Source: a virus
Reading direction: 5' to 3' (one strand)
Virus record (IMG/VR): IMGVR_UViG_3300017934_000023
Location: 1-64,000 of that record
Length of the DNA: 64,000 bases
The notes under the pieces are model-generated. The model was given only the letters and a program-made list of their open reading frames with translations, was not told the DNA's origin and ran no database searches. A program made the position numbers and the translations under genes. Positions 10,280 to 38,600 of this stretch are shown in pieces; position 1 is the first letter of the stretch, and every line of letters starts with the position of its first letter.

Positions 10280-10280
10280 T

Positions 10281-11653: not shown

Positions 11654-11913
11654 GCTTTTTTAAAGATGCGGAATTAAAAATAGTTCTTCGTGGCGGAAAT
11701 TTAATTCATGAAATATCAATATCTGATCCGTGTGGAAAAGTATACGCTCAATGTGAAAAACACAAAAATTATTGGCAGAGAATTTATGCCAACGAGTTTG
11801 CATCAGTCGAACTGATACGAGAAACAGCGCAGAGAATTATTGATGCATGTCCAATGTGCGAAGCAGAAAAACCGCCGGCTAGACTCTGTTTTCCGGAAGG
11901 AGCCGAACTGTGA
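11650..11913 (+). CDS. Hypothetical protein with Cys pairs, 87 aa
   Basis: MSFFKDAELKIVLRGGNLIH is beta-rich, and Cys residues (including CPMC near residue 68) suggest a metal or disulfide site. Four-base overlaps at both ends tie it to the glycosyltransferase genes. It may be a partner, but no family is recognised. Confidence 0.55.
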   Translation: MSFFKDAELKIVLRGGNLIHEISISDPCGKVYAQCEKHKNYWQRIYANEFASVELIRETAQRIIDACPMCEAEKPPARLCFPEGAEL

Positions 11914-17500: not shown

Positions 17501-17836
17501 ATGCCAATTTCAGACGTAACAATGCGCACGATCAAGTGTGACAACGAGAAGTGCGACAAGGAAGTCACGTTCAATGTTCAGGATCAGGCCGCCATTGCTG
17601 CGCTGCCCGACTGGCTGCGAACCTACCGCAACGTCGTTCTCGGAAATAATGCCCGCTTTGGGTATTGCTCTGACGAATGTGAAGTCGAAGGTGTGACGTC
17701 CGGCGTTCATAACGTTCCGGAACCCAAGAAGGTCGAAGTGGCCACACCTGCCGATGCGCAGCAAGTAATTGCAAATGCCAAGGTGGCTGATGCGCTAAAG
17801 GCCAAGAAGGGCAAAGGCAAAGTTAGCCTCGAGTAA
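17501..17836 (+). CDS. Small zinc-binding protein, 111 aa
   Basis: Cys pairs at about residues 13/18 and 56/60 (CDNEKC and CSDEC) form a likely zinc site; the tail is Ala/Lys-rich and ends KKGKGKVSLE. AAGGAG upstream. May bind nucleic acid or act as adaptor; function unknown. Confidence 0.6.
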   Translation: MPISDVTMRTIKCDNEKCDKEVTFNVQDQAAIAALPDWLRTYRNVVLGNNARFGYCSDECEVEGVTSGVHNVPEPKKVEVATPADAQQVIANAKVADALKAKKGKGKVSLE

Positions 17837-17838
17837 CT

Positions 17839-18168
17839 ATGGACACATTCATTCGCATTAAGGGTATACTCAAGCAGCCCATCTACGAGACAGGGCCTTG
17901 GTATACCCTATGGCGTTTGAAACCTGTTGAGACTTACAAGTCTATGTCTTTCTCTGCTAGTCATAAAGACGATGCAGAACTTTTCAGCATCATTGATAAG
18001 GTGATGGGAACCATTATGCACAACCAAGGAATGTCTGTTGTGACAGATGAGTTGATGTCTACCAAGAAAGTAGATAATTTACAATTCTGGCCCATGCATA
18101 ATTTTTCTCATATCGAAGTAGAGACTCGGCTTTTGTCGGCTCCCCCAGTAGAAGGTATGGTTCAATGA
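17839..18168 (+). CDS. Hypothetical protein, 109 aa
   Basis: MDTFIRIKGILKQPIYETGP, aromatic-rich N-terminus, then a helical middle. Starts two bases after the previous stop and overlaps the ClpP-like gene by four bases. No recognised motif. Confidence 0.6.
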   Translation: MDTFIRIKGILKQPIYETGPWYTLWRLKPVETYKSMSFSASHKDDAELFSIIDKVMGTIMHNQGMSVVTDELMSTKKVDNLQFWPMHNFSHIEVETRLLSAPPVEGMVQ

Positions 18169-18713
18169 ATTCGACATTCGTAATCACAGGAGAAATCGTT
18201 CCGGCGACTGCCAACCAATTCTTTTGGGTAGCAGGCGAGGATTTTATAACAGATGTTGTTATATCATCTCCGGGCGGTGACATAGGGCTGACGTATGGAA
18301 TGTTCGATGTGATCAAGTTCCAGAAGATGCGAACGCACGTCGTTGGACTAGCTCAGTCGGCGGCCGCGGTGTTGCTGCAGTCCGGCAGTTGGCGAACCAT
18401 GACCAACAGCAGTCTTTTGCAGTTTCATGCACCAGAAGAAAATGTTTCTGATGCAGAGTTTCGGTTGTATACTCAGCTTGTTGAGATGGTGGCACAGCGT
18501 TCCGGTCTCAACATTGCCGAGGCACACGATCTTTTTGACAACCATTTTATTACAGCGAATCGGGCCCTGGAGTTAGGCCTGATCGATGAAATCGCGGAAG
18601 ACGCGAAAGTTATGAGGTGGACCAGAGATGGGAGAAGTCACAGAATTCCGGAAATTGGAAGCAGGAACGGGACCAATGAAACCGAAGCTGACGGATGTGG
18701 TGGCGGCATTTAA
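18165..18713 (+). CDS. ClpP-like serine protease, 182 aa
   Basis: ISSPGGDI is the ClpP oxyanion/handle motif; GLAQSAAAVLL carries the catalytic Ser (Ser65) and LLQFHAP the catalytic His (His88). The Asp is likely Asp125 in FDNHFITANRALELGLID, although alignment by the Phe would put Asn126 at that place, so the third residue should be checked. Length matches a short ClpP. In a tailed phage a ClpP relative can be a prohead protease, but the gene is far from the capsid gene. A ClpA-type unfoldase is encoded at 31936. Confidence 0.75.
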   Translation: MNSTFVITGEIVPATANQFFWVAGEDFITDVVISSPGGDIGLTYGMFDVIKFQKMRTHVVGLAQSAAAVLLQSGSWRTMTNSSLLQFHAPEENVSDAEFRLYTQLVEMVAQRSGLNIAEAHDLFDNHFITANRALELGLIDEIAEDAKVMRWTRDGRSHRIPEIGSRNGTNETEADGCGGGI

Positions 18714-18891
18714 ATTTTCGCGCCTGCCTCGAGAAGAACGTATGGCTCAGCTTATCGAGCAGATTATTGAAAATAATGTTTTCTCTGGATTAGGTCCAGA
18801 GTCAATTCGTATGATTACCAGCCAACTGGAACCATACGCTAAGAAAGACTTCGCGGTTCGTTACGGGCACCTGGACGATGGCAAGAATTAG
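18628..18891 (+). CDS. Hypothetical protein, 87 aa
   Basis: Begins MGEVTEFRKLEAGTGPMKPK and becomes a helical, charged domain. The start at 18628 overlaps the protease gene by 86 bases with GGTGG upstream; ATG 18676 with AGGA nine bases away is an equally good start. Overlaps the next gene by 14 bases. Function unknown. Confidence 0.5.
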   Translation: MGEVTEFRKLEAGTGPMKPKLTDVVAAFKFSRLPREERMAQLIEQIIENNVFSGLGPESIRMITSQLEPYAKKDFAVRYGHLDDGKN

Positions 18892-19213
18892 GATCACGCG
18901 CGATACAGTAGAAATAGAAGCGCGGTTACGATCATTCATAACCCGGGCGCCAAGACTTGACTCTAAGATCTCTAAGCAATTACTTGCAGCTATCTCGGGT
19001 CTAGCCTATTTATACAAAGTGGAGATGGGGCCTATATTCTACACTTTGATTCGTAACTATTTTGGTTATATGCCAAAGAGTGAGTTTGACACAAGCAAGC
19101 CACCTACTGAGTCTCAATTGAAGCCAGAGGAACCAGAAAATAAACCCTTGACTCCCGAACCAATCAGTGGTATATTGGATGGGCTGGAGGATGATGATGG
19201 CGACAAAGATTGA
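18878..19213 (+). CDS. Hypothetical protein with Pro/Glu-rich tail, 111 aa
   Basis: Starts MARIRITRDTVEIEARLRSF, a basic helical domain of about 65 residues, then a Pro/Glu-rich linker and acidic end (GLEDDDGDKD). The ribosome site of the next gene lies in its tail. Confidence 0.55.
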   Translation: MARIRITRDTVEIEARLRSFITRAPRLDSKISKQLLAAISGLAYLYKVEMGPIFYTLIRNYFGYMPKSEFDTSKPPTESQLKPEEPENKPLTPEPISGILDGLEDDDGDKD

Positions 19214-19607
19214 GTATATTCCGTTTGCAGATCAACAAGTTGAAGGCGATTGGCGCGTTGAGGCTATTAACGAAAAAGAAGGTGAAGTTTATATCGCCAT
19301 TTTTAGTGGTCCCGGCTGTGAAAAGCGAGCGCACGAATATGCAGCTTTCAAGAATGGCAAGCACCCTTTGTCTGCCCCTAAACCTGTTGTTGCCCCTCCC
19401 GTTCCTGTTCCGGCCCCTGCGGCGCCAGTGGCAGAGAAACTTAGCCGCGGAGAGTTTAGAATACGGACTACAGATAATGGAACTTTAGTTGTTCGTCCGC
19501 ATGAGATGAATTGGAAGTTTGACAAAATTAGGAAAACACTTTCAGGAAAGCCTAAGCCGGCAATCGAGCGGATCGACGGCATAACTGTCGAGAAAGAGGA
19601 AAAGTAA
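19197..19607 (+). CDS. Hypothetical protein with Ala/Pro linker, 136 aa
   Basis: Of three consecutive ATGs (19191, 19194, 19197) the last has GGAGG at the best distance. An N-terminal beta domain, an Ala/Pro/Val linker (residues about 62-80), and a C-terminal basic domain (RPHEMNWKFDKIRKTLSGK). Overlaps the previous gene by 17 bases and abuts the exonuclease. Confidence 0.55.
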   Translation: MATKIEYIPFADQQVEGDWRVEAINEKEGEVYIAIFSGPGCEKRAHEYAAFKNGKHPLSAPKPVVAPPVPVPAPAAPVAEKLSRGEFRIRTTDNGTLVVRPHEMNWKFDKIRKTLSGKPKPAIERIDGITVEKEEK

Positions 19608-20324
19608 ATGTTGATAGCGTCTTTTGATTTCGAAACAACCGGGCTCGACGTTAATCAGGACAGAGTTATAGAAGTGGGGGCAATTTTATACACTACCACA
19701 TTCAAGCGCGTGGTGATGGCTGAAAGCTTCCTGGTCGACAACGAGCAGCCTATTCCTAAGATCATTACGGATATCACCAAGGTGAATAAGCCAATGATCG
19801 ATAAGTTTGGTTTGACATCGGCAGACGGGCTGGCACGGCTACAGAATTATTTCGACATGTCGGAAGCTGTGCTTGGAAAGAACATCACGGACTTCGATCT
19901 TCCGCTGTATCGTAACTGGTGCTTGCGTGAGAAGGAAGAGCCGATTGAAAAGATCATTGTTGATCTTGAGACAGATCTGATTGATGTCGAACCAAAGCAC
20001 TTGGGATATATGGCGGCCGATGATGGATTTTTGAATCCATTTCCTCATGCAGCTTTGCCGGATGCCTGGACCGCGCTTCGTCTATTCGAGCGCAACGCAG
20101 AGAAGTACGGACTCGAGAAGGTGATTGAGCATGCTAAGTCTCCGCGCGTTTATCTTAGAGCCCATGTGACTTTCGAAACGAATTATCTGGCGCGGGAGAG
20201 AAAATTTCGCTGGAACAATGATCGAAAGATTTGGTGGAAGGTTTGTAAGGAACAGGATTTAGAAGCTGAAACTAAGGCGGCTCAGTTTGATGTGTCGCGC
20301 ACAGATCCAGTTCCTACCCATTAA
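19608..20324 (+). CDS. DnaQ-like 3'-5' exonuclease (DEDDh), 238 aa
   Basis: FDFETTGLD (ExoI; D and E), GKNITDFDLPLY (ExoII Asp) and HAALPDAWTALRL (ExoIII; His and Asp) give the complete DEDDh set. It would remove nucleotides from DNA 3' ends for proofreading or degradation. The C-terminal 60 residues form an extra domain rich in Trp and Lys. A GAAA-loop hairpin (20327-20342) follows its stop directly. Confidence 0.85.
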   Translation: MLIASFDFETTGLDVNQDRVIEVGAILYTTTFKRVVMAESFLVDNEQPIPKIITDITKVNKPMIDKFGLTSADGLARLQNYFDMSEAVLGKNITDFDLPLYRNWCLREKEEPIEKIIVDLETDLIDVEPKHLGYMAADDGFLNPFPHAALPDAWTALRLFERNAEKYGLEKVIEHAKSPRVYLRAHVTFETNYLARERKFRWNNDRKIWWKVCKEQDLEAETKAAQFDVSRTDPVPTH

Positions 20325-20326
20325 GT

Positions 20327-20342
20327 TTCGGCGAAAGCCGAA
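20327..20342 (+). terminator. Hairpin with GAAA tetraloop
   Basis: TTCGGC-GAAA-GCCGAA, a perfect six-pair stem with a GNRA tetraloop, starts right after the exonuclease stop. No T run follows, so it may be an RNA stability or processing element rather than a full terminator. Confidence 0.45.
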
Positions 20343-20382
20343 TGTAGTCAAACTCACAAAGTGAAAGGGAGACAATAAGCCT

Positions 20383-20949
20383 ATGGCAATGATAGTCTCA
20401 GTAAACACGAAAGAGTACGAAAAACCGGCCGAGGGCGTAGCTCTCGGTGTTCTAGCTGATGTCGCCGATTTGGGTCTCATCGACGGACCTTATGGCGCGA
20501 AGCCTAAATACCGGTTCTCCTGGGTGATCGACCAGAAGGATTCGGAAGGAAACTATTTTGTGGTTTCCAAGACGTACACTGCTTCTCTTCATGAGAAGTC
20601 AAACATGTATGCCGATGTGAAGGATATCCTTGGAGCGCCGCCTTCGGTGCCTTATGATGTCGAACTTCTGATTGGCAAAGTCAACATGCTGGTTCTTAAG
20701 AAGGAAACAGCTACTACTGGAAAATACGCGGGTAAGGATTTCGTCAACATCAAGGCGTTCCTTAGCGCGCGGCCGACGGATAGGTTTGCAGTTCCTGCCG
20801 GCTATGTTCGTGAAAAGGATGGAGGTCAGTTCGGCCGCCCACCCAAGCAGAACAACTCTCAACAGCAGCCTCGTACCGCCGCTCCTGCGCAGAGGCCGAC
20901 AACGGCCCCCGCTGCTCCGGAAGTGGCTGGCGAAGATATTCCGTTTTAA
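20383..20949 (+). CDS. Single-stranded DNA-binding protein, 188 aa
   Basis: An OB-like N-terminal domain of about 140 residues, then a Pro/Gln/Ala-rich flexible linker and the acidic hydrophobic tail EVAGEDIPF, the hallmark of bacterial SSB that recruits partner proteins. Sits directly before the primase-helicase. The ATG at 20383 has GGGAG rather far upstream (12 bases); Met3 is another possible start. Confidence 0.75.
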   Translation: MAMIVSVNTKEYEKPAEGVALGVLADVADLGLIDGPYGAKPKYRFSWVIDQKDSEGNYFVVSKTYTASLHEKSNMYADVKDILGAPPSVPYDVELLIGKVNMLVLKKETATTGKYAGKDFVNIKAFLSARPTDRFAVPAGYVREKDGGQFGRPPKQNNSQQQPRTAAPAQRPTTAPAAPEVAGEDIPF

Positions 20950-21045
20950 TTCCAATTATTAGCGGAACAACGGAAAGCTGGAAAGCCCCGGGAGACGCAA
21001 GGCTTGACGGATCGGAGAGACGATCACTCTTTTTAAGGACAACGA

Positions 21046-23193
21046 ATGTCATTTAAAAGCTTAGCGTTGCCGATGGCTTTAATGAAGGTTCCGGTTGTTC
21101 GCCTCCAACCGAAAAGTAAGATTCCACTCGATAAAGCTTGGCAAACACTTGCGACTACAGATGTTAATAAAATTCTCGCGTGGAACTCAGAGACCCCTAA
21201 TGCTAACTGCGCGTGCGTGGCAAAGCCAGATGGAGTTTTGTTCTTTGAGACAGATGAGCCGGGAGTGATTGAGCGTTATGAAAAAGAGACCGGAAAAAGC
21301 TTTCGTACATTCACTGTCCAATCGCGTAAAGATCGATTTCACTTCTACTTTCTTCAAACAGATGAGTCTAGAAGCTGCGGCAGCATTACTCAAAAAGAAA
21401 TCCCTTTCGGATCTCTGCGACAGAATAACGCGTATGTCGTCTCTCCAGGATCCATACATCCTACGACCGGCCTTCCTTATGTTGTGAAAGATGAGTCACC
21501 AATTATTCCGATACCTTCGGAGTTGATTGCGTGGCTTATTTCTCAGAAAATGAAAGAACAAAAAACTACACCTTCGTTGACAGGCAATGATCCTATTCCT
21601 CTTGGGATGCATGATGTCACTTTGACGGCCATTGCCGGTAAGTTGCGGCAGGATGGTTTAGAAAATGCAGAGATCGAATCAGTTCTTGTTAGAACGTGCG
21701 AACAGCGTTGTACTGGCTACGGCAGCGATTACCGAGAAATGTGTCAGAAAATTGCTCGTTCTGTCTGCCGATATCCTGCAGGGGATCCTGGTCCGACTGT
21801 TCTCTTAGGCGGCAAGCTTCCTGGGCAGAATGTTACCCAGGCCCGCGCGCAAGCAAGCAGCGTGGCAAGCGCGGCTGCGGGAGTTGAATTACTTCCTTCC
21901 AATCATGAGGTGGTTGAAAATGAAGTCAAAGAACAAGACAACGAATACCCCTACTGGTGCTGGAACGGAACTCTCTACGAAGATTTTGCTACACTCTGTG
22001 GAGAGAATAACGTCGTCCCCAAAGAATATTTCATCGAATCCATTAAGACTGTGGTGGGAGCGATTTGTGGGCACAGGATTTTTCCCCATCAGGCTCCAAA
22101 CCAAGAATCTAGATTCTATACAGTCCTTGTTGGCCCGGGTGGCTGCGGTAAGTCGAGCGCTACGCGGTGGGCGCGGGACATGTTCATTGGTACGGGTTTG
22201 GTCTACGAACTCACGCAAGCAGGTGGGTACACAAACATTGGCTGCGCACAAGGCAGCTTTGCTTCAAGCAGCGGCCTCATTAAAAATGGGTTTATGAAAC
22301 ATACGCGGCTTCTGCAAGTCTACGATGAAGCCACTACCATGATTGAGAAGTTTGGCATCCCGGGATCTGGAGATTCATTCCTAGACGCGATGAATCAACT
22401 TTTCGAATCAGGCAATATGCCTCAACTTGTGACACGGGAAACTAAAGAGATTATGTCCAAGGCAGTGCATAACAGCATTCTTGGATGTACCACGAAAGAG
22501 AAATGGTCGTCAGCTTTCGTCAGGACTAATTCAGAGAGTTCCGGATTCTTTCAGCGCCTCAACATCATCACCAGCGAAGAGGAGGGCCGTGTAGCCAACT
22601 GGGTTGAGCCCGATCTTTCAGTTCTTCGTGATCGATTCGTTCGTAAGATCCAACCTCTTGAATATCAGAATGTAGTTGTTCGGAGAACTCCGGAAGCCGC
22701 AGAGATGTTTGAGAAATGGTATTCAGACAAGAGGCCTGAATGGAAGGAATATCCTACGGATATCACCGGCCGCATTCAGGTTATGGTCCAGCGTAATGCT
22801 TCTCATCTGGCGTGGCTTTTGTCTGGTGATGATGTTCTGCCTGATGCAGAGAAGGCTCTCATTCCCATAGAAGTTTTGTGCGACGAAGAGATAATGGAAA
22901 AATCCATCGCGCTTGCAGAATATGAAATTGTCGCGCGTCTGGCTCACCAGCCAGCCCCGGGAAAGAACGACTGGGCTATCATGGAGAATCTTATCAAGAG
23001 CGTTGTGAAACGCAAAGGTCAGATTCTGCGGTCCAAACTCGGAAGAGAAATTCGAGCGGATAACTATGGTGTTCAAACTTTTGAAAAAGCCATTAACAAT
23101 TTAGTGCAGGAAGGTCTCATCAAGATCGGGCAGCGCGAAGGAGAAGTTAAACGCGGTCGTCGAGCCCAGGTCATAATGTGGTGCGAAGAATGA
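21046..23193 (+). CDS. Prim-pol primase plus helicase replication protein, 715 aa
   Basis: The N-terminal 200 residues look like a bifunctional primase-polymerase domain: acidic GVLFFETDEPG, a His region (DRFHFYF) and NAYVVSPGSIHPTTGLPYV. Residues from about 320 form a helicase-type ATPase with Walker A GPGGCGKSS (363-371), an acidic LLQVYDEATT Walker B and a later Arg-rich region. The C-terminal 80 residues (KSKLGREIRADNYGV region) look like a winged helix. Primes and unwinds DNA at the fork. The gene is followed by a homing endonuclease inserted before the polymerase. Confidence 0.8.
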   Translation: MSFKSLALPMALMKVPVVRLQPKSKIPLDKAWQTLATTDVNKILAWNSETPNANCACVAKPDGVLFFETDEPGVIERYEKETGKSFRTFTVQSRKDRFHFYFLQTDESRSCGSITQKEIPFGSLRQNNAYVVSPGSIHPTTGLPYVVKDESPIIPIPSELIAWLISQKMKEQKTTPSLTGNDPIPLGMHDVTLTAIAGKLRQDGLENAEIESVLVRTCEQRCTGYGSDYREMCQKIARSVCRYPAGDPGPTVLLGGKLPGQNVTQARAQASSVASAAAGVELLPSNHEVVENEVKEQDNEYPYWCWNGTLYEDFATLCGENNVVPKEYFIESIKTVVGAICGHRIFPHQAPNQESRFYTVLVGPGGCGKSSATRWARDMFIGTGLVYELTQAGGYTNIGCAQGSFASSSGLIKNGFMKHTRLLQVYDEATTMIEKFGIPGSGDSFLDAMNQLFESGNMPQLVTRETKEIMSKAVHNSILGCTTKEKWSSAFVRTNSESSGFFQRLNIITSEEEGRVANWVEPDLSVLRDRFVRKIQPLEYQNVVVRRTPEAAEMFEKWYSDKRPEWKEYPTDITGRIQVMVQRNASHLAWLLSGDDVLPDAEKALIPIEVLCDEEIMEKSIALAEYEIVARLAHQPAPGKNDWAIMENLIKSVVKRKGQILRSKLGREIRADNYGVQTFEKAINNLVQEGLIKIGQREGEVKRGRRAQVIMWCEE

Positions 23194-23702
23194 AGAAAAA
23201 TAAAAATGGTTATATTGATGATATTCTTGGTAAACAGTTTGGGTATTTGAAACCATATAAACGAGGGCCAAATTACATCTCAAATTGTAAAGGAAAAAAG
23301 AATACATCTACCCGCGTTTGGTGCTATGATTCATCTTTTCCTGGGGCTCCAGATAGATTGGTGCATGCAAGCTCTCTTAGACGGGGAGAAACTAGAGGAT
23401 TGAATAGACCGCACGGATCCGGAAGCATCAGAACGGACGGATACAAAAGTATTAAAAAGAACGGTAAATTTATTTCAGAGCACCGTCAAGTAATGGCAGA
23501 TTATTTGGGGCGAGAACTTTTGTCTTCTGAAAGTGTACATCATCGCGGCGATAGAGCAGACAATAAAATTGAATTATTGGTATTAAAGAATAGGGCCCAC
23601 GGTTCCGGACAATCAATTTATGACCAGATAGTTTGGCTTAAGTCTTTAGGTATTAAGATTAGTTTTATTCCTTCTAAGCTTAAGAAAATCTGGAAAGACT
23701 GA
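23190..23702 (+). CDS. HNH homing endonuclease, 170 aa
   Basis: The ATG at 23190 overlaps the helicase stop (ATGA). The C-terminal half contains SEHRQVMADYLGRELL, SVHHRGDRADNKIELL and an LKNRAHGSG turn, the HNH_3-type arrangement. The N-terminus IDDILGKQFGYL resembles the KRFGNL block of the other HNH genes here. More AT-rich than its neighbours; lies between the helicase and polymerase genes, a typical homing location. Confidence 0.8.
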   Translation: MKKNKNGYIDDILGKQFGYLKPYKRGPNYISNCKGKKNTSTRVWCYDSSFPGAPDRLVHASSLRRGETRGLNRPHGSGSIRTDGYKSIKKNGKFISEHRQVMADYLGRELLSSESVHHRGDRADNKIELLVLKNRAHGSGQSIYDQIVWLKSLGIKISFIPSKLKKIWKD

Positions 23703-25891
23703 TGATTAAACGATTGCATTTTGATCATGAAACGTGTAGTCCACTTGATTTGAAAAAAGTGGGTTCGGACGTGTATTTCAGTCATCCGCTTACTAAAATA
23801 TTAATGACTGCGTATGCGTTCGACGACGGTCCAGTTTCTGTGTGGGAAGCCCATACGGGTCCGATGCCGGAAGAGTTGGTAGCTGCATACAAGAATCTAA
23901 CCATAAAAAAGTGCGCTTGGAATGCTACATTCGAGCGCACAGCTAATGATAAACTTCTAGACATTTTCATTCCCTTCGATGAATGGGAAGATCCTTCCGT
24001 GGGCGCTAGGCATCTCTCGATGCCTGGGGGCCTGGATGAAGTTTGTGGAATCTTGGGCCTGCCTTCCGAACTGGTGAAGAACGAATCTCGGGGCCGGGAG
24101 TTGCGGCGTCTATTTACTGAACCTCAGCAAATTAAAAAGAAGAAAGCAGCTACGGATGAAAATACTCTGTTTGCAATTTCTCCGACCGGCGAAGAGAAGA
24201 TTGAATACGTCTTCGCAAATCATATTTCCCATCCCAAAGAATGGGCAGAATTCGTGGAGTATTGCCGCCAGGACGTAGTTGCGGAGCGCGCCGTTCAGAA
24301 GCGCACTGACGTTTTTCCCCTCACAGACATGGATACCAAAATGTGGTATCTCGATCAGAAGATCAATAATACTGGCATTGCTGCGGATAGGGATTTTGCA
24401 ACCAAGTGTTTGAAGCTTGCTCAACGAGACAAGGATGCTTTCGTAAATAAGCTTCGCGTTATTACCGGCCTCGAAAATCCTGTATCCAATCAACAGATGC
24501 TGCCGTGGGTTCAGCAGCACGGATATCCTTACAACTCATTGCGTAAGGAGCCTGTAGGAACTGCGTTGATTGATGATCAGGTAAAGCTTACGGATAAGGG
24601 TCGGGAAGTCTTGGGTATGCTCAAGTATGCCAAGAAGACTTCCTACACCAAGCTTGAAGCTATCACAACTGCCCTTAGTTCTGATGGTCGACTGAGAGAT
24701 CAGTTTTTGTTTATGGGGTCTGCGCGTGCAGGACGTTGGACCGGCCGCAATGTGCAGTTGCAGAATATGGCGCGTCCAATTAAGGCTCTTGGAAAGAAAG
24801 GTAAACTAGAGTTAGCTATTGAATTAATTAAGGCTATGGATTATGAAGGATTAAAGAGAGAATTCGATCCGGAGCCAAAAGATCCGAAAAATCCTGGGGA
24901 CCCAGTTATTGATATAGTCACATCCTGTATTCGGTCAGCTTTCATCGCGGAGCCCGGGAACAGGCTGGATGTCTGCGATCTGAACGCAATTGAAAACCGC
25001 GTGCTCGGGTGGGTGGCCGGCGAAGACAAGATCCTTCAAGTGTTTCGTGACGGCCGGGATCCTTATCTAGACTTTGCAGCACGTTGGTTCAATGTTCCTT
25101 ATGAAGTGATCAAGGCTGCCTACGATAATCACGATACCGACGCAGAGTTCAAGCGGCAGATTTCTAAGCCCGCGGTTCTTGGTTGCGGATATCGTCAGGC
25201 CGGCGGCGACTGGGGAATTAATCCTCAGACGGGTGACAAGGTTAAGAAAGGTCTGTGGGGCTACGCGGAAAATATGCACTGCCCCATGACTAAAGATCAG
25301 GCCCACGAAGCCGTGGCTGTGTTCCGTGGTGAGTACAAGAAAGTTGTCAACCTATGGTATGATTCGGAGCGGGCAGTCATTCGTTGCCTCAAGCAGGGTA
25401 CGACTGAATGGATTGGCCCCACCCAATTAGTCTGGTGCGATCGCCGCAAGCGCAAGGACGGATCTTATCTTCTGAGAATCCACCTTCCTTCCGGCCGGTG
25501 TCTGCATTATCTAAACGCCCACGTCGAAGAGCGGGAGAACACAGGGCGGGACGGTACTGTTTACAAGAAAGACACTATATTGTATGACGGTATTGACGCA
25601 ACAAGTGCGAACAAGATGTGGAAAGAGATAGTTACGCACGGCGGGAAGATCGTGGAGAATGTTGTGCAGGCCATCTCTCGAGACATTCTGGTGCATGCTA
25701 TGCTTCTCGCTGATGAGATTGGACTTAAGATAGTGGGTCATATCCACGACGAGATAATTTGTGAGGATCCGGATACAGAGGATGGGTTGGGACTTGAGGA
25801 TCTGACGTGGTGCATGTCTCAAGTTCCCACTTGGGCCCCGGGATTACCCTTGACAGCGCGCGGCTATAGTGGTAGAGTGTATAGGAAGTGA
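23702..25891 (+). CDS. DNA polymerase, family A, with 3'-5' exonuclease, 729 aa
   Basis: N-terminal exonuclease motifs: HFDHETCS (D-x-E), WNATFE (Exo II region) and YCRQDVVAE (Exo III Y-x3-D). The polymerase has motif A around residue 422 (DLNAIENRVLGW), motif B at about 485 (RQISKPAVLGCGYRQAG) and motif C at about 680 (HIHDEI). The motif B has CGYRQ where Pol I has YG. The protein is large enough for replication as in T7-like phages. Starts in ATGA overlap with the HNH gene. Confidence 0.9.
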   Translation: MIKRLHFDHETCSPLDLKKVGSDVYFSHPLTKILMTAYAFDDGPVSVWEAHTGPMPEELVAAYKNLTIKKCAWNATFERTANDKLLDIFIPFDEWEDPSVGARHLSMPGGLDEVCGILGLPSELVKNESRGRELRRLFTEPQQIKKKKAATDENTLFAISPTGEEKIEYVFANHISHPKEWAEFVEYCRQDVVAERAVQKRTDVFPLTDMDTKMWYLDQKINNTGIAADRDFATKCLKLAQRDKDAFVNKLRVITGLENPVSNQQMLPWVQQHGYPYNSLRKEPVGTALIDDQVKLTDKGREVLGMLKYAKKTSYTKLEAITTALSSDGRLRDQFLFMGSARAGRWTGRNVQLQNMARPIKALGKKGKLELAIELIKAMDYEGLKREFDPEPKDPKNPGDPVIDIVTSCIRSAFIAEPGNRLDVCDLNAIENRVLGWVAGEDKILQVFRDGRDPYLDFAARWFNVPYEVIKAAYDNHDTDAEFKRQISKPAVLGCGYRQAGGDWGINPQTGDKVKKGLWGYAENMHCPMTKDQAHEAVAVFRGEYKKVVNLWYDSERAVIRCLKQGTTEWIGPTQLVWCDRRKRKDGSYLLRIHLPSGRCLHYLNAHVEERENTGRDGTVYKKDTILYDGIDATSANKMWKEIVTHGGKIVENVVQAISRDILVHAMLLADEIGLKIVGHIHDEIICEDPDTEDGLGLEDLTWCMSQVPTWAPGLPLTARGYSGRVYRK

Positions 25892-25900
25892 GGAGAACCA

Positions 25901-26797
25901 ATGACAAAGCTTGATTCACTTGTGGTGACTGGAGACCTGATTTTACTGGACCCGGAGCAGCGTGTTCAGTTCTATGTTCAGGTCTGTAATGCGATGGGGC
26001 TGGATTTTCGTACGCGTCCTTTGCAGTATTTTGAGCAGATTGATCGCAACGGAAAGCGCAATCTGATTCTGTATGCATTGCGAAATGCGTCTGCGCAATT
26101 GCGTGCGAAGCATAATCTTAGTGTCACTTTGTCAGCCCCTGAGTTTAGTTTTGATACCGTCATTTTTACCGCGACAGTTAAAAATCTTAATGGCCAGCAA
26201 GACTCAGCCGTCGGCGCTGAATCCTTGAAAGACCTTGTCGGCAAAGAGTATGCTGATCGCATCATGGCAGCGCAGACGAAAGCCAAGCGCCGCGCCATTC
26301 TGGACTTCGTCGGGTCTGGTATGCTGGATGAATCTGAAATCGAAGGTATGAATGGATCTGTGGTTGAAGTTACTGATTCGCAGTTGAAGGGATATGTTCC
26401 TATTCCTGCGGCTCCCGCGCCGGCTACAGCAAGCGCGCCTGCTACGGAAGTTCTTGAACTGAAAGGCGAAGACGCAAAAGTTTTTGTTGAAGCTATTGTG
26501 AATCCCCCTGCGCCCGTTCCGGCTCTGGTAGCTGCGGCTGAAAAGACGAAGGATGATGCATCAGAGCGAGAGATCACATCGCGTTTGAATACGTATCGTC
26601 GCGACATTTTGCAACAAGGCGGTATGCGTCCGTCGAAGGGATTTGGAATCGCAGCCAAGTGGTCTAAATTTGTAGCGAAAAGCGCACCCAATAAATCAAT
26701 AGAAGAGTACACAACACTTCTGAATGCTTTGGATATTCTGTTAACACAAACTGGAGCGGCTGGAGTTGTTACTGAAATTGAGCGGGTGATTGCGTGA
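25901..26797 (+). CDS. Candidate single-strand annealing protein, 298 aa
   Basis: Residues 1-150 contain LLDPEQRVQFYVQVCNAMGL, LRNASAQLRAKHNLSV and KAKRRAILDFVGSGMLDE, a pattern I know from a widespread phage and prophage protein next to nucleases and helicases, often left unnamed. The arrangement suggests RecT/Rad52-like strand annealing, which is inference. An Ala/Pro-rich linker and a C-terminal helical domain follow. AGGAG precedes the ATG; the stop overlaps the UvrD helicase start. Confidence 0.45.
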   Translation: MTKLDSLVVTGDLILLDPEQRVQFYVQVCNAMGLDFRTRPLQYFEQIDRNGKRNLILYALRNASAQLRAKHNLSVTLSAPEFSFDTVIFTATVKNLNGQQDSAVGAESLKDLVGKEYADRIMAAQTKAKRRAILDFVGSGMLDESEIEGMNGSVVEVTDSQLKGYVPIPAAPAPATASAPATEVLELKGEDAKVFVEAIVNPPAPVPALVAAAEKTKDDASEREITSRLNTYRRDILQQGGMRPSKGFGIAAKWSKFVAKSAPNKSIEEYTTLLNALDILLTQTGAAGVVTEIERVIA

Positions 26798-28668
26798 GTG
26801 ATTTTCCTCTTAATCCGGAACAGCATGAAGCCGTCCGATTCCGTGAAGGTGTCGCTGTTGTTATGAGCGGGCCGGGTTCTGGAAAAACTAGAACAACGGT
26901 GGAGCGCGTGCGTTCCATTCTGGATGAAGGGTGCCCGGGCGATCAGGTCCTGGCTTTGACATTCACGCGCGAGGCCGCAGAAGAAATGTCCCGTCGCGCC
27001 AAGTTGTTAGGCGATCAGAAGATCTTTCGGACGTTTCACAGCTTCTGTTTGGAAGTGATTCACAGGGAAGCATCAAAACTTCCATTTACGCTACTTCATG
27101 CGCCACCGGAACCCGGACAGCAGCGTAAACTTTTAGGCACGCTGTGTCGTAGTAATAAGCTGGACTTTAAGAAGTTGACCAGTTATATTTCTGCGATGAA
27201 GCGCAAGGGTGCTACATTTGATGAAGCGATGGAGGCCGCCCGCGGCGCCGAAGGTTTGCACTTGGCAATGGCTTACAAGCAGTATGAAACCCGGTGCCGG
27301 CAAGAGGGCTGGCTTGATTTTGATTCGATGTTGATCGAGAGCGTGCGTCTGCTGTCCACGAATGAGGAAGTTCGTGCGCGGTGGCAATTCAAGTATGTTC
27401 TCGTGGATGAAGCGCAGGATACAGATGATATACAATGGAAACTCGTGCAGCTTATTTCCGAACGGCACGGTAACGTTTTTGCAGTGGGAGACGAAGAGCA
27501 ACTTATCTACGAATGGCGTGGCGCCGAAGCTAACGGACTATCCAAATTTCAGGGACGATTCCCTGGATGCCGTGTCATTTATCTCTTTCGAAACTACCGG
27601 TCTACTGAGGAGATTGTGGCTTTTTGTAAAAAGCTTGCTCCCAAGGAAAGTGAACTCATCAGCCGTATGGTATCGGAAAGAGGCCCTGGACCTGCTCCGC
27701 GAGTCGTTAGGTATGCCTCCGACTCCGACGAAGCTTCAAAGACTTTGTCGTCTATTAGCGAGCCCGAACATTCAGCCGTTCTCGTTCGCACGAACCGTCA
27801 GCTTGCCCGGTTCGAGAATGCGTGCATTGATCGGGGAATTAAGTATAACCTCCTCGGGAAATCTGGTTTTTGGACACAGCCCGAAGTCCGATACCTTCTC
27901 GCCTATTTGCAGGCCAGTGAATTCCCTTCCGATGCTGCCGTCAAAACCATCATCCAGTCCCCCTTTCGGGAGACCAAGTACCTCAAGAAGAAAGACCTTA
28001 TTGCGGCGCTTGAGGCTAAGGCGAAATCGGAGAAGGAAAGCTTAGGCAAGGCAGAAACCTTTCTTCATTCCATGACGACCCCTGAGATCTTGAATCAGTT
28101 CGAGGATCATCAGCGGGACAATATCAAGCGCACCGCTCAGTTCATCCGGTCATTCCGGCACAGTGGTCCCGCACCGGCCAACATTATTTTGCAAGATATA
28201 CTTGACAGAGCCGATGTTCGGGTGTACTATGAAACTGAGGAAGAGGGCGACGGAGACAATGATGCAATCGAGAACATCAACGAATTATACAAGGTGTCCG
28301 CAAGATTTGGGAACGCAAGAGCCTTCTTGGATCACGCCCGAAAAGCAATCGCTGCCTCCCGTAAATCTAAGCAGCCACGACTCGCATTGTCCACTGTGCA
28401 TCAAGCCAAGGGCAAAGAATGGGATCATGTTTTCGTTGCTGGCGTCAATCAGGACGTTCTTCCACACAAGCGTGGTGAGATTATGGAAGAGCGGCGCATT
28501 TTCTACGTCGCTTGCACGAGGGCTGCTCGGACGCTCACCGTGTCATTCTTTGGAGTGCCATCAGTTTTTCTTAAGGACCTCTGGACTCCCGAAGCACAGC
28601 AGCAACTGGACAGTACCCAATTGCCAGGATTTAATGGACAACCCGGACTGTTCGAAGGATTAGACTGA
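26794..28668 (+). CDS. UvrD/Rep-family DNA helicase, 624 aa
   Basis: GTG start at 26794 overlapping the previous stop. Superfamily 1 motifs in order: Q motif (NPEQHEAV), Walker A GPGSGKT (26-32), LALTFTREAAEEM (Ia), VLVDEAQDTD (II), AVGDEEQLIYEWRGA (III), YLFRNYRST (IV), TVHQAKGKEWDHVFV (V) and YVACTRAAR (VI). A 3'-5' helicase for recombination or repair, paired with the RecB-type nuclease two genes on. Confidence 0.9.
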   Translation: MSDFPLNPEQHEAVRFREGVAVVMSGPGSGKTRTTVERVRSILDEGCPGDQVLALTFTREAAEEMSRRAKLLGDQKIFRTFHSFCLEVIHREASKLPFTLLHAPPEPGQQRKLLGTLCRSNKLDFKKLTSYISAMKRKGATFDEAMEAARGAEGLHLAMAYKQYETRCRQEGWLDFDSMLIESVRLLSTNEEVRARWQFKYVLVDEAQDTDDIQWKLVQLISERHGNVFAVGDEEQLIYEWRGAEANGLSKFQGRFPGCRVIYLFRNYRSTEEIVAFCKKLAPKESELISRMVSERGPGPAPRVVRYASDSDEASKTLSSISEPEHSAVLVRTNRQLARFENACIDRGIKYNLLGKSGFWTQPEVRYLLAYLQASEFPSDAAVKTIIQSPFRETKYLKKKDLIAALEAKAKSEKESLGKAETFLHSMTTPEILNQFEDHQRDNIKRTAQFIRSFRHSGPAPANIILQDILDRADVRVYYETEEEGDGDNDAIENINELYKVSARFGNARAFLDHARKAIAASRKSKQPRLALSTVHQAKGKEWDHVFVAGVNQDVLPHKRGEIMEERRIFYVACTRAARTLTVSFFGVPSVFLKDLWTPEAQQQLDSTQLPGFNGQPGLFEGLD

Positions 28669-29204
28669 TGGGACGACCACTTATTGATCTAACAGGAAAA
28701 CGTTTCGGTAATCTTAGTGTGCTTCATAGAGTAAAAGATCGCCGTGTAGGCGATCATTTTGAAGTGTGGTATCGGATTCAATGTGATTGCGGGAAAAAGA
28801 AAAGTATGCGCGGTTACCTTATTAGAGACGGCCGCGCCAGAACGTGTGGATGCGGACAACGGACTAGCAGATATGATAAATTTGGTTATCCAACAAAGGA
28901 GTATAGAATGTGGTGTGCAGCGGCGCGTAGAGCCCGGGAACTTAAAATTCCTTTCAACATTCATCCGAGTGATGTTAAGATTCCTAGCATTTGTCCTTTA
29001 CTGGGTATAAGGATAAACAGAAACAATAAAACTACAGGAAAAAACAGTCCATCAATAGACCGTGTTATTCCCTCTCGAGGGTATGTTAAAGGAAATATTT
29101 TGATTATAAGTCATCACGCAAATCAAATCAAAAATGATGCGACACTTTTGGAGTTACAAAGGATCACCAAAAATCTGGAGAAAATATGGGCTTCCTTTAT
29201 ATAG
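28668..29204 (+). CDS. HNH homing endonuclease with zinc N-domain, 178 aa
   Basis: N-terminal block DLTGKRFGNLSVL followed by CDCG and CGCG, a small zinc-binding DNA-recognition domain shared with the HNH genes at 43982 and 51366. The C-terminus has CPLLGIRI, then SIDRVIPSRGYVKGNILIIS and HHANQIKNDATL, a nuclease type common in phage free-standing homing genes. AT-rich; its end overlaps the RecB-type gene by 19 bases. Confidence 0.8.
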   Translation: MGRPLIDLTGKRFGNLSVLHRVKDRRVGDHFEVWYRIQCDCGKKKSMRGYLIRDGRARTCGCGQRTSRYDKFGYPTKEYRMWCAAARRARELKIPFNIHPSDVKIPSICPLLGIRINRNNKTTGKNSPSIDRVIPSRGYVKGNILIISHHANQIKNDATLLELQRITKNLEKIWASFI

Positions 29205-30385
29205 ATTCAAATGGTGATGTTCGCAACCGCCACAGCTACAGCGCCGGCCTCGAGTTCGATCACTGTCCGTATAAGTATTACTTGCACCGTGTGATTGGGT
29301 GGCGTGAGAAGGATTCTAAGGCCGCACTGCTATTCGGCCGCGCCCTAGAAGATGCGATCGAGTTTTATCACAAGACCGGCGGGAAGTTAGGTGAAGAGGA
29401 GTTTATGCGCCTGTGGACAATGGCTAAGGGTAAGCAACTGACTTATACCAAACGTGAGATCAACTGGGAAAGTCTAATGCGCGCCGGCAGGGAAATGATG
29501 AGGCTGTATATTATTCGTCAGCCTAAACTTCCGATTCCATTGGACACAGTATTTCAAAGGCAATTTACTAAGGAAGTTTTTCCTGGGGATCCAAAGCTAG
29601 GTGGTATTGAATTTTTTGCTAAGTTGGATATGATTGCCTACACGCAGCCAGATCATCCAATGCTTCCGACGGTCCCGTGGAATCCGGAGAAGGGTGCTTT
29701 CCGGCCGGTGATCATCGACATCAAAACTAGTGGCATCGACTTAGACGATACTAAGGGAATAGTTGCGCACGATCTTCAACTCCGGCAATATGCCTGGGTT
29801 CGCGGCATATATGATGTGGCTTTTCTGTGGTTTAAGAAGTCTCCGCATGGCATCAAGAAAGGATCTAGCGTCACTCTTTTAGCTGATGCTGGCCGCTTTG
29901 CCGCGGGCGATGAAGCCGTGATCGCATCCGTGGAAGGTGAATCAGCCTATGTTGTAGGCAACGATGTCATGCTTGAGGAAATGAATAAGGCCCAGGGACG
30001 TAAGGAAGACGGCGGCCTGGATACTAAGAAAGAAGCCAAAGAGCGTGCCCGCTTGTGGCGTGAACAGAATGCGGTCCTGGTCCCGCTTGTGGATATCACC
30101 AGGCAGCGTATGCAATTCAGCGCAGGCATTGTGGACCCGAAGAGCGCTGAGGACGCGGGACAAATCGCGGCAGATCAGATAGTTAAGATCGTCAACGCAT
30201 GGGAATCCAATAAGTGGACGAATACCTTCGGGGTACGTTTTCCACATGATGATCGAAGAGACGGATATTTTAAAGCTTTTTGCTTGCAAGATACCGTTTT
30301 TCGTGATAGCATATTTGAACAGAAAGCAGAAGAGGATTTGAATGATTACTTCGATGAGCCAGAGGAGGAAGGAAATGAAGGTTAA
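29186..30385 (+). CDS. RecB-type PD-(D/E)XK nuclease, 399 aa
   Basis: FFAKLDMIAY (first acidic residue), VIIDIKTSG (D-x-K, about residues 176-184) and LQLRQYAW (Q-x3-Y) are the nuclease core of the RecB/Cas4 group. An N-terminal CPYKYYLHRV box also fits this group, but later Cys residues of an iron-sulfur cluster are not seen. Start at 29186 with GGAGAA upstream. Likely acts with the UvrD-type helicase to resect ends. Confidence 0.8.
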   Translation: MGFLYIDSNGDVRNRHSYSAGLEFDHCPYKYYLHRVIGWREKDSKAALLFGRALEDAIEFYHKTGGKLGEEEFMRLWTMAKGKQLTYTKREINWESLMRAGREMMRLYIIRQPKLPIPLDTVFQRQFTKEVFPGDPKLGGIEFFAKLDMIAYTQPDHPMLPTVPWNPEKGAFRPVIIDIKTSGIDLDDTKGIVAHDLQLRQYAWVRGIYDVAFLWFKKSPHGIKKGSSVTLLADAGRFAAGDEAVIASVEGESAYVVGNDVMLEEMNKAQGRKEDGGLDTKKEAKERARLWREQNAVLVPLVDITRQRMQFSAGIVDPKSAEDAGQIAADQIVKIVNAWESNKWTNTFGVRFPHDDRRDGYFKAFCLQDTVFRDSIFEQKAEEDLNDYFDEPEEEGNEG

Positions 30386-30911
30386 TTGTTCGGGCGGATG
30401 TGGTCGAGTTGCAGAGTTGCCGGGGGCCACAGAACTTTCACAATTTATTTGTTCCCGGTGTGTCGCTCCCGCGGAAGAGGGATCGTCGTTTCAGAAGTTT
30501 GCTTTCGATCCTTTTTTAGATAAGAGGCGATCTGGTAGAGATTTAATTGCTATGAATGCTGCTGCTGGAAATATTCGTTTTGAGAGGCTGAGTAAGACTG
30601 TAGGTAGTGGTTTTCAAATCATAACGCCGCGGAGAGAAGAAAGAGAAATCCCCGAATGGGCTCGTATGAAAGCCGGAATTCAAAAAATTCTTCTTACTGC
30701 TTTTCCCCGTCTACATACAAGCCTTAGTCAGCGTACCCGCGCTGGTCGTTGGGCACAGGTGATAAATTTGTATTTTGTTAAAGGTTGGCCAGTTTCGGAA
30801 GTCGCGGATGAACTCAACGAAAGTATTACTGTTATAAAAACTTTAACCCGCAGTATCACTCGAACTTCGCAGGGATTAAGGACAGATGGAAGTGGTCCGC
30901 GGTCTAAGTAA
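30375..30911 (+). CDS. Zinc-ribbon protein with sigma-like HTH, 178 aa
   Basis: Start at 30375 (MKVNCSGGCGRVAELPGATE) with GGAGG upstream. Cys pairs near the N-terminus (CSGGC, then CSRC) make a zinc ribbon, and the C-terminal part (VINLYFVKGWPVSEVADELN then a second helix) reads like a sigma region 4 or HTH. It may bind a promoter or RNA polymerase; this is inference from two motifs. Confidence 0.5.
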   Translation: MKVNCSGGCGRVAELPGATELSQFICSRCVAPAEEGSSFQKFAFDPFLDKRRSGRDLIAMNAAAGNIRFERLSKTVGSGFQIITPRREEREIPEWARMKAGIQKILLTAFPRLHTSLSQRTRAGRWAQVINLYFVKGWPVSEVADELNESITVIKTLTRSITRTSQGLRTDGSGPRSK

Positions 30912-31545
30912 AAATATGAAAGAAAAACAGAGCAAAGAAAATAACCTTGTTACGGTTCATACTTGCTTCTCGATTGAAATGGGTGATCCTTTTCCTGATG
31001 TATGTGCGTGCCGCCGTAAGATTAAATTGCAACATGCGAAGCGTTGGGTTGCTGGTGGAATTGCCGAATGGGTATCTGTAGGTCGTAAAACTACGCATGA
31101 TAAAATTTGTGTGATAGGCGGATCAGCTTTGCGCACTCCGCGTGTCGCAACAATCGAGAAAGCACATATCGAACGCGCTTATGGGGTTGGATGTGGAGGA
31201 GACATAGAAGAGGCTGCTCGCATTGAAGCGTATGGAGAAATAAATCGTGAAGCACTTCGCAGCTTGACAGTTTATAAAGATCCAGTAGAATTTGATGAGG
31301 CTAAGAAAAAAGATTGGGGCACTCCTGTTCTGTACAGCGTGACAAATGATAGGACAGATTATGCAGCGGGTTATGCAATAAACAATAGTTCAGATAATTA
31401 TTGTTCAGGGGAATTGGATGATTTAGATGAAATATTTCCGAAAGGTACACGAACCATATCCGAAGATTTTTTTGAAGTTGGATGGTGGAATAAACCTAGC
31501 CCTTTTAATCGAATAAGTCCTTTTGATGCAGGATGGAATAATTAA
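30886..31545 (+). CDS. Hypothetical Cys-containing protein, 219 aa
   Basis: Start at 30886 has AAGGA close by; ATG at 30916 after the upstream stop is an alternative. Segment VHTCFSIEMGDPFPDVCACR, then a basic region and an acidic C-terminal half rich in Asp, Asn and Trp. No family recognised. It is more AT-rich than the replication genes before it. Confidence 0.6.
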   Translation: MEVVRGLSKNMKEKQSKENNLVTVHTCFSIEMGDPFPDVCACRRKIKLQHAKRWVAGGIAEWVSVGRKTTHDKICVIGGSALRTPRVATIEKAHIERAYGVGCGGDIEEAARIEAYGEINREALRSLTVYKDPVEFDEAKKKDWGTPVLYSVTNDRTDYAAGYAINNSSDNYCSGELDDLDEIFPKGTRTISEDFFEVGWWNKPSPFNRISPFDAGWNN

Positions 31546-31554
31546 GGAGAAACA

Positions 31555-31923
31555 ATGAGTGAAGAAATTCTGAATGATGAACAGATTCAAAATTGTGCAG
31601 ATAAGGCCACTACTAAGATTGGGGTTTTACTAGCTGCGCTGCGATTTAAAGAGGAGTTCAGGAAGCGGTCGTTCTCCGGCCGTAATCCTCAATTAGGTCC
31701 AATGATCAAGTGCGCTCAATGTGGGTTGCGGCATCGCGACAATGTGAGGCACGATCCAATCAAGTATGCAGATAAGTCGGGTACGCCCGAAGGTGAAAGC
31801 AATCCTATGATTGCACAACCGCGCCGATTTCGTGGTGTAGCCAATGCTTTTGGTTGGCGCGCGAAGCCTGGAAAAATGATTTGGATTAAAGAACTTAAGA
31901 AGTTCATGACGTTAACTCGGTAA
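31555..31923 (+). CDS. Hypothetical protein with zinc-knuckle, 122 aa
   Basis: MSEEILNDEQIQNCADKATT helix, then CAQCGLRH, followed by a basic C-terminus (FRGVANAFGWRAKPGKMIWI). AAGGAG upstream. A single CxxC plus nearby His may bind zinc. Function unknown. Confidence 0.6.
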   Translation: MSEEILNDEQIQNCADKATTKIGVLLAALRFKEEFRKRSFSGRNPQLGPMIKCAQCGLRHRDNVRHDPIKYADKSGTPEGESNPMIAQPRRFRGVANAFGWRAKPGKMIWIKELKKFMTLTR

Positions 31924-31935
31924 GAAAGGAAGATC

Positions 31936-33231
31936 ATGGGCCTGTTCGAAAAGAAGAAACCAGTAACGAAGAAGTTAGACGAATCGATTGTTCCTGCAGA
32001 GATACAAGAACTCGAAAAGTCTATGAAGGCCAAAGTTGCGGGTCAGGATCGTGCTATTGCGCAGTTCGTGCGCGTGCATGAGTCTGTTCTTGCGGGGCTC
32101 ACTCCGGCAGACCGGCCCCTTGGAGTTTTTCTTTTCGTTGGCCCAACAGGGAGCGGAAAGACTCACGTTGCAGAAGTTTTTTCTGAGTTGATGGATATCA
32201 CTCTCATTAAGATCGACTGCGCTGAATTTCAGCACTCTCATGAAATCGCAAAGCTACTTGGCGCACCTCCAGGATATGTGGGAGGGGAGATTCAGCCAAA
32301 GATTTGCAAAGAGACGGTTGAAGCCAAATGGAAAGACAGCAAGAATAAATACACCGTGATTCTTTTCGATGAGATTGAAAAGGCTCACAATGCGCTTCAT
32401 CAAGTTCTACTTGGCATTATGGATCGCGCCACTTTGACCTCTGGAAAGAATCAGACGATCGATCTCAAGCAATGTATCGTTGTTATGACTTCGAATTTAG
32501 GATCCGGAGAAGTGAAGAAGTTGCTGCGCACTAGCGGCGGTTATGGGTTCATAAAGAAGAGTGATGATGTTACGCCGGCCGGAAATGCTTCGCTTGACGA
32601 AGATATTTATCGTGCATCGAAGGACGCGGTTCTAAAATTTTTCTCTCCAGAATTTTTCAATCGTGTCGACCGCATGGTTGTATTCCGCGCCTTGACTGAT
32701 GAAACTTTGCGTCGAATTCTTGACATAGAGTTAGCTCGCGTTCAGGATAGAATTCTTAAAGCGAAGAAGTTCGTAGCAGTGGAAGTGTCGGAACGTGGTA
32801 AAGATTTCCTGATCAAGGAAGGAACTAGTAAAGAATTTGGTGCCCGGGAACTACGTAGGACCATCGAACGTTTTCTAGTTTCTAAACTTACGCGTGCATT
32901 CGCTACCAATCAGGCTAAAGACGGCGATATGATCCTTGCTGATAAAGAATCAACCAGCGAAGGTCTGACATTGGATATCACAAAAGATGTGATGGATCTT
33001 CCAATCCTTGAAAAGAACGAAAACACTTCGATATGCAAGCAACCGAAGAGGGCTTGTATTCTTCCGGAATCTCCTACACTTCGCGATCCGATGCGGGGAA
33101 TTGTAGATCCAAATTATTGCGCGCGCTGCGGGTATCGGTGGTATGATGCACATAAGTGTTTCGATTTGGTGAACAGAATTCTAGATGATAGTAAACCGGG
33201 AAGCTATTGGCGCAGGCCACCTAAGGAGTAG
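31936..33231 (+). CDS. ClpA/ClpC-type AAA+ unfoldase (single ring domain), 431 aa
   Basis: Contains the second AAA+ domain of Clp/Hsp100 proteins: Walker A GPTGSGKT (69-76), pore loop GYVG (113-116), Walker B VILFDE (141-146), sensor 1 TSN (185-187), Arg finger FFNRVD (Arg243) and sensor 2 GARELRR. Between sensor 1 and the Arg finger lies GYGFIKK (202-208), exactly where ClpA has IGL and ClpC VGF, the loop that docks into ClpP; ClpB lacks it. A Cys/His-rich tail (CARCGYRWYDAHKC) follows. With the ClpP-like protein it may form a phage protease. Confidence 0.8.
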   Translation: MGLFEKKKPVTKKLDESIVPAEIQELEKSMKAKVAGQDRAIAQFVRVHESVLAGLTPADRPLGVFLFVGPTGSGKTHVAEVFSELMDITLIKIDCAEFQHSHEIAKLLGAPPGYVGGEIQPKICKETVEAKWKDSKNKYTVILFDEIEKAHNALHQVLLGIMDRATLTSGKNQTIDLKQCIVVMTSNLGSGEVKKLLRTSGGYGFIKKSDDVTPAGNASLDEDIYRASKDAVLKFFSPEFFNRVDRMVVFRALTDETLRRILDIELARVQDRILKAKKFVAVEVSERGKDFLIKEGTSKEFGARELRRTIERFLVSKLTRAFATNQAKDGDMILADKESTSEGLTLDITKDVMDLPILEKNENTSICKQPKRACILPESPTLRDPMRGIVDPNYCARCGYRWYDAHKCFDLVNRILDDSKPGSYWRRPPKE

Positions 33232-38324: not shown

Positions 38325-38339
38325 GCCAAAGAGAATCTT

Positions 38340-38600
38340 ATGTCCTCAGTCGAACCAATTAAAGGCACTTCGACTGCCGGCCAAATAAAATTTGCCGACA
38401 TCAAGAGCCCAATGGAAGTATCGGATGATGCTGCACTCAAAATAGTTACGAGGGATGCAAAATTTACTCGTTCCTGGCTCGAGAGCAGATACTTTAATCT
38501 CCGTTGGATTGAAATTGATTTGCTGTATCAGTCTCCCCCGACACTGCGCGTGTGGGAAGGGACATCGATGCCGAAGGCGAACATCGCCAGTTTACGGTAG
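38340..38600 (+). CDS. Portal protein, N-terminal part (frame-shifted)
   Basis: MSSVEPIKGTSTAGQIKFAD to IDLLYQSPPTLRVWEG is the start of a portal protein, but the frame then reads TSMPKANIASLR and stops. The true continuation is in the next frame from 38552. A shift of one base around 38556-38561 (GAAGGGACATCG) would join them as VWEG-DIDAEGEHRQF. Likely one gene 38340-40468 with either an assembly error in the G run or a real frameshift. Confidence 0.7.
   Translation: MSSVEPIKGTSTAGQIKFADIKSPMEVSDDAALKIVTRDAKFTRSWLESRYFNLRWIEIDLLYQSPPTLRVWEGTSMPKANIASLR

Follow-up and report, generated by a model that had tools for sequence, protein, structure and literature searches.

The described partners of the ClpP peptidase are ClpX, which forms a single ring, and ClpA, ClpC and ClpE, which form a double ring. 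Clp genes are already known in phages: Atu_ph07 encodes seven Clp-family proteins including ClpX, ClpA, ClpB, ClpS and a ClpP subunit (PMC6102473), jumbo phages have been found with ClpP, ClpS, ClpA and ClpX (PMC7824862), phage P26059A carries clpP (PMC5964084), and one lineage of aquatic jumbo phages commonly has ClpA (PMC12619734). We found no report in the open-access literature of a ClpP partner consisting of a single-ring Clp second ATPase domain (D2), and the ClpP-docking single-ring type common to Acidobacteriota and phages appears to be undescribed. Here we analysed a stretch of 64,000 nucleotides of viral DNA (the window), part of the 69,279-base IMG/VR virus record IMGVR_UViG_3300017934_000023, which encodes a single-ring Clp-type AAA+ unfoldase and a ClpP-like protein. 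An earlier note on this DNA proposed that the two could form a phage degradation machine, or that the unfoldase could hijack the ClpP of the host. Our comparison argues for the host ClpP as the protease partner of the phage unfoldase, with a probability of about 0.6.

The unfoldase shares the D2 fold and a ClpP-docking tripeptide with ClpA, ClpC and ClpE, but these have two AAA+ rings and an N-domain, whereas the phage protein has one ring and reaches 230 bits against the 993-bit cut-off of TIGR02639. ClpX also has a single ring, an IGF loop and a zinc-binding domain, but it belongs to another AAA+ subfamily, carries its zinc domain N-terminally and matches the phage unfoldase only at an E value of 2.6e-11. 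ClpB/Hsp104 contains D1 and a middle domain and has no IGF loop, while the phage protein is D2 alone with YGF present. The viral two-ring Clp unfoldases of large phages (phrog_4871; ClpA of PA5oct, Atu_ph07; PMC6102473) are likewise phage-borne, have IGF/VGF-type loops (72/76) and, where the record reaches 100 kb or more, often stand beside a genuine ClpP. They differ in possessing two AAA+ domains, and the partner ClpPs examined keep the docking socket. Single-ring Clp ATPases encoded on Acidobacteriota chromosomes (L210-L226) make up the sister group. These are also D2-only with AAA+ motifs and an IGF-type loop; unlike the phage unfoldase, they have no C-terminal CxxC...HxC finger and lie on chromosomes in varied neighbourhoods.

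Architecture, docking loop and relatives of the unfoldase

The features of the unfoldase gene and of its chromosomal relatives are as follows.

31936..33231, + strand: single-ring (D2-only) Clp-type AAA+ unfoldase, 431 residues (Pfam AAA_2 2.1e-34, ClpB_D2-small 9e-16; Foldseek; tree)
32140..32163, + strand: Walker A GPTGSGKT, residues 69-76 (sequence; kept in the clade alignment)
32272..32283, + strand: pore loop GYVG, residues 113-116 (sequence; GY[VIL]G conserved across the clade)
32542..32550, + strand: ClpP-docking tripeptide Y203-G204-F205 (position of E. coli ClpA IGL)
33118..33159, + strand: zinc-finger-like motif C395-x2-C398-x7-H406-x-C408 (C/C/H/C invariant in ten aligned phage members)
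L208:9059-10435, - strand, and L210-L226: D2-only Clp ATPases of single-ring type encoded on chromosomes, loops of IGF type (17/149 Acidobacteriota genomes; no NCBIfam name)

Pfam detected one ATPase domain only, and the structural model (predicted local distance difference test, pLDDT, 87) had its best Foldseek matches in the second nucleotide-binding domain (NBD2) of ClpC and ClpB. The single AAA_2 plus ClpB_D2-small and these NBD2 matches show that the description of the protein at 31936 as a lone second Clp domain was correct. No NCBIfam model attained its cut-off for this protein or for the ClpP-like protein. A clade of soil phage contigs was retrieved through portal and primase alignments; its unfoldases numbered 11 by sequence, of which ten (the window and nine relatives, 46-66% identical to it) entered the alignment. 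The AAA+ motifs were intact throughout the clade, including Walker A, DE, sensor 1, the arginine finger, GAR and the aromatic pore loop.

The loop of the window protein, GGYGFIKK, follows sensor 1 (TSN) and precedes the arginine-finger region, at the place where E. coli ClpA has SIGLIHQ. The earlier reading of GYGFIKK as standing at the place of the IGL/VGF docking loop was borne out by this alignment and by the occurrence of [Y/M/I]-G-F in 11/11 clade members, with Tyr in four, Met in six and Ile in one at the first position; in five members without the loop proline, MGF was assigned by alignment. The most distant relative, G013, has exactly IGF. Within residues 198-224, G204 and F205 were the sole invariant residues (10/10), and the remainder varied in length and sequence. 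The motif is not a matter of chance, because its type is shared by 72/76 parsed loops of viral two-ring relatives (I/V/L/M-G-F or I-G-Y) and by 22/22 bacterial single-ring relatives. The same note had stated that ClpB lacks this loop; this holds for E. coli ClpB, which has no docking tripeptide at the ClpA IGL position, but IGF was present there in one of the six acidobacterial two-ring proteins that we read as ClpB-like.

An alternative is that the unfoldase needs no protease and acts in replication or in the assembly of virions as a chaperone, disaggregase or remodeller; the GF loop would then be vestigial or serve another partner. The best single-sequence match in the PDB was ClpB NBD2, the gene sits between the replication genes and the lysis/packaging genes, and ClpA and ClpX of jumbo phages were proposed as aids in virion assembly (PMC7824862). 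Against this stand the invariance of GF amid an otherwise variable region and the retention of the loop motif in all bacterial single-ring relatives, and we consider a protease-free role unlikely, though it deserves to be kept in mind.

Every aligned phage unfoldase (ten of ten) is closed by the finger pattern C-x2-C-G...W...H-x-C, and none of the 17 acidobacterial single-ring homologues has such a C-terminal CxxC...HxC finger. Because the unfoldase has no N-terminal domain, the finger is an obvious candidate for the recognition of substrates or of an adaptor, and it is likely to be such a part.

A D2-only Clp ATPase 47% identical to the phage unfoldase is encoded on the chromosome of a Candidatus Sulfotelmatobacter metagenome-assembled genome (MAG), with host genes on either side. 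Of the 149 Acidobacteriota genomes sampled, 17 have this protein, at 63-100% identity, and the loops of all 17 homologues are I/L/M/F-G-F. In the maximum-likelihood tree, seven phage unfoldases formed one clade (99/96), which was sister to the acidobacterial single-ring group with a joint support of 100/97. This joint group was nested in a larger, exclusively single-ring set (100/96), separate from ClpA, ClpB, ClpC and the viral two-ring proteins. When the neighbourhoods of the chromosomal genes were compared, they were varied and without a conserved partner, and probing of plasmids and phages for the single-ring family gave no match above 40% identity among the matches listed.

Two further forms were seen near this family. 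Very short single-ring Clp ATPases of 334-362 residues with AIGFQP/VVGFHP loops (L228, L229, L232, L233) occur in other Acidobacteriota and are sister to the L210-L226 group. L227 is a D2-only Clp ATPase of 524 residues with a VGF loop, and its C-terminal stretch resembles a response-regulator receiver domain (putative).

The ClpP-like protein

18165..18713, + strand: ClpP-like (S14 fold) protein, 182 residues, trimmed, without docking socket (Pfam CLP_protease; fold; comparison of socket, handle and N-terminus)
18357..18359, + strand: nucleophile Ser65 (invariant in 37/37 aligned S14 proteins)
18426..18428, + strand: His88 (Ile in the G013 relative)
18537..18542, + strand: Asp125-Asn126 (Asn126 aligned with ClpP Asp171)
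17501..21045, + strand: replication-operon context with small proteins of 111, 109 and 87 residues, an RNase T-type exonuclease at 19608 and a 188-residue protein at 20383 (gene order; Pfam RNase_T)

The product of the gene at 18165 is a ClpP-like Ser/His protein, as previously proposed. It matched Pfam CLP_protease with an E value of 8.7e-13 at profile positions 51-180 only, and its AlphaFold model (pLDDT 89) had only ClpP among the top Foldseek matches, with template modelling (TM) scores of 0.61-0.70. A single-sequence search for its relatives in viral contigs and named phages found none, and portal, primase and family alignments were needed. Five homologues were compared. Ser was present in 5/5 and His in 4/5, being replaced by Ile in G013. 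For the third catalytic residue, where the choice lay between Asp125 and Asn126, Asn126 occupies the column of ClpP Asp171, which holds Asn in three homologues, Asp in one and Glu in one; the neighbouring Asp125 is invariant. In G013 (L120 / L106) the catalytic His reads Ile within LQYIPPPE, yet the unfoldase loop of the same genome is exactly IGF.

The comparison set for the protein was the ClpP of E. coli plus six genuine ClpPs from phage records that also hold a related IGF-type unfoldase. The docking pocket is lost, as Y60/Y62/F82/I90/F112/L114/L189 correspond to D/V/F/H/T/T/A. The N-terminal axial region and helix are missing, with 31 residues before the Y62 position vs 62-75 in the ClpPs, and the handle has lost about 11 residues, with 39 residues between the His and Asp positions vs 50-52 (62 in one). 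The six genuine phage ClpPs are hydrophobic at most pocket positions and keep the socket, the axial loops and the handle; therefore, phages that bring the whole machine retain the socket, whereas the clade of the window does not. The ClpP-like protein is probably not the partner of the unfoldase, because the socket for the docking loop is absent.

A ClpP-family match above the cut-off was found in 19/50 viral records with related unfoldases, and in 14/21 among the records of at least 100 kb. Large phage contigs that combine a two-ring IGF-type unfoldase with a full-length ClpP include G021, G024, G028, G029, G034, G059 and G061, among others, and in G053 there are two genes of the ClpP family.

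The genes for the unfoldase and the ClpP-like protein are both real, and both are conserved. They were present together in 5/5 related contigs covering both regions (the window and four relatives), and the four relatives were 46-75% identical to the window in the ClpP-like protein and 46-65% in the unfoldase. Both are under purifying selection, with a ratio of nonsynonymous to synonymous differences (pN/pS) of about 0.2-0.5 and pN well below a saturated pS. The co-occurrence and the purifying selection, together with the genuine ClpPs paired with IGF unfoldases in large phages, would fit a phage AAA+ protease of its own in which the two proteins dock in a non-canonical way. Whole phage genomes are conserved among these relatives, and thus the co-occurrence alone is no proof of a functional pair; a pairing deduced from it was rejected, since kinship across the genome accounts for 5/5. 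The two genes are also non-adjacent, 13 kb apart, the third catalytic residue is mostly Asn, and the loss of the socket residues, axial region and helix, the shortened handle and the loss of His in one relative speak against such a machine, so that this first proposal of the earlier note is now quite improbable.

The PHROG matches of the ClpP-like protein are mostly head maturation proteases (best 6.8e-11), and the phage S14 head maturation proteases (phrog_94, phrog_1684) share its fold and its Ser/His. It could be read on this basis as a prohead protease. However, the other phage S14 proteins that we compared have Asp or Glu as the third residue and a longer handle. True prohead proteases are located in head modules, while this gene belongs to the replication operon, with the terminase gene about 18 kb and the capsid gene about 24 kb downstream of it, and its placement is the same in every spanning relative in which the order was checked. 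Tunturi_3 (PP885686), which has the same podoviral structural module as the window and a major capsid protein 65% identical to that of the window, has neither a ClpP-like gene nor the unfoldase; a six-frame search of its complete 97.6-kb genome with the ClpP-like profiles matched no open reading frame (ORF). Because of the operon location and this absence, a prohead-protease role was rejected, and that the protein acts only in this way is extremely unlikely; the loss of His in G013 points in the same direction.

The block at 17501..21045 is directly followed by a primase-helicase at 21046, and a family A DNA polymerase also belongs to the replication block. The order of this operon matches in relatives L121-L124, with some gaps, and the start of the ClpP-like gene overlaps the last codons of the preceding gene. 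Its product probably acts separately from the unfoldase, and the place of the gene among replication genes makes early infection the probable time. It may be a weak or specialised peptidase, or it may interfere with the host ClpP. In the latter case it would target the host Clp system, for example by entering the rings of host ClpP or competing with them, the substrates being delivered by the phage unfoldase. In favour of this, the protein retains the ClpP fold but has lost what is needed for docking and for the stacking of rings, and the ClpR proteins of cyanobacteria and plastids, inactive ClpP paralogues that enter mixed rings, offer an analogy. On the other hand, the invariant Ser65 suggests that chemistry matters, and we regard this alternative as very doubtful.

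A small conserved protein at 18673-18891 overlaps the end of the ClpP-like gene and adjoins that gene in all four relatives. It is a possible partner.

Probable host and probable protease partner of the unfoldase

Tunturi_3 is the only named phage with a portal related to that of the window (35% identity), and further structural proteins are in common. It is a podovirus of Tunturiibacter, isolated on an Acidobacteriota strain (PMC11924767). The structural genes match those of Tunturi_3, and therefore the host is probably a member of the Acidobacteriota. The Candidatus Sulfotelmatobacter MAG with the chromosomal D2-only ATPase also has a contig that encodes a portal homologue; this is weak host evidence, and one prediction of this kind, made from a MAG contig that was viral throughout, was dropped in that study (PMC11924767).

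Full-length ClpP was encoded in 10/10 searched genomes with a chromosomal single-ring unfoldase. In MAG G071, the ClpP socket is largely hydrophobic, with Q60/Y62/Y82/L90/L112/L114/I189. The phage unfoldase bears a plug fitting bacterial ClpP, and for this reason it probably borrows the host protease. The suggestion that it could hijack the host ClpP is thus the one favoured by its sister position to IGF unfoldases of Acidobacteriota that have an ordinary ClpP.

From the sequences we infer the following course. The AAA+ protein, a single-ring Clp unfoldase of the Acidobacteriota chromosomal type, would form a hexamer during infection. Its Y/M/I-G-F loops would dock in the hydrophobic pockets of the host ClpP barrel, and it would feed chosen proteins to that protease, with the C-terminal CCHC finger picking substrates or binding an adaptor. 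The phage ClpP-like protein, which is trimmed, has the S14 fold and is encoded among the genes for replication, would stand outside this machine and have a separate job.

Several points weigh against host ClpP as the partner. A working pair would likewise lead to both genes in 5/5 contigs, even though whole-genome kinship explains this count, and a non-canonical contact between the unfoldase and the ClpP-like protein may exist. The whole-genome sampling of the single-ring family covered Acidobacteriota only, the Acidobacteriota host is likely and is deduced from related genes, and Tyr as the first loop residue is confined to the phage clade.

Taken as a whole, we tentatively propose, at somewhat less than even odds, an undescribed ClpP-partnering single-ring Clp D2 family in Acidobacteriota, a relative of this family in a podovirus lineage with an added zinc finger that retargets host ClpP to substrates chosen by the phage, and, in the same lineage, a ClpP-fold protein that has ceased to dock an unfoldase and has a new early role. 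With its docking loop, a Clp ring made of D2 alone would amount to a ClpA-type unfoldase in minimal form, and Acidobacteriota are a phylum in which proteolysis and phages have received little study. Use of the phage unfoldase with host ClpP, if it occurs, would be a case open to testing in which a virus provides a host protease with a substrate selector of its own. Huge phages have both a genuine ClpP and two-ring unfoldases, and this contrast serves as a natural experiment on the conditions under which a phage supplies the protease itself.

Other genes of the window

The portal gene (38300-38620) is frameshifted near 38590, with the first ~95 codons in one frame and the remainder in another, while the relatives have a single ORF of 711 residues. 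An error in the assembly or a mutation of recent date is the probable cause of this frameshift. Small ORFs at 13659, 23178, 28668, 43982, 51366 and 53078 carry HNH/endonuclease VII-like Cys/His motifs and are perhaps homing endonucleases; the one at 13659 matches the endonuclease VII of Tunturi_3. The region 8752-13657 contains a cluster of ORFs resembling glycosyltransferases and a methyltransferase, and a protein with collagen-like Gly-x-y repeats is encoded at 47729-48478 in the structural module.

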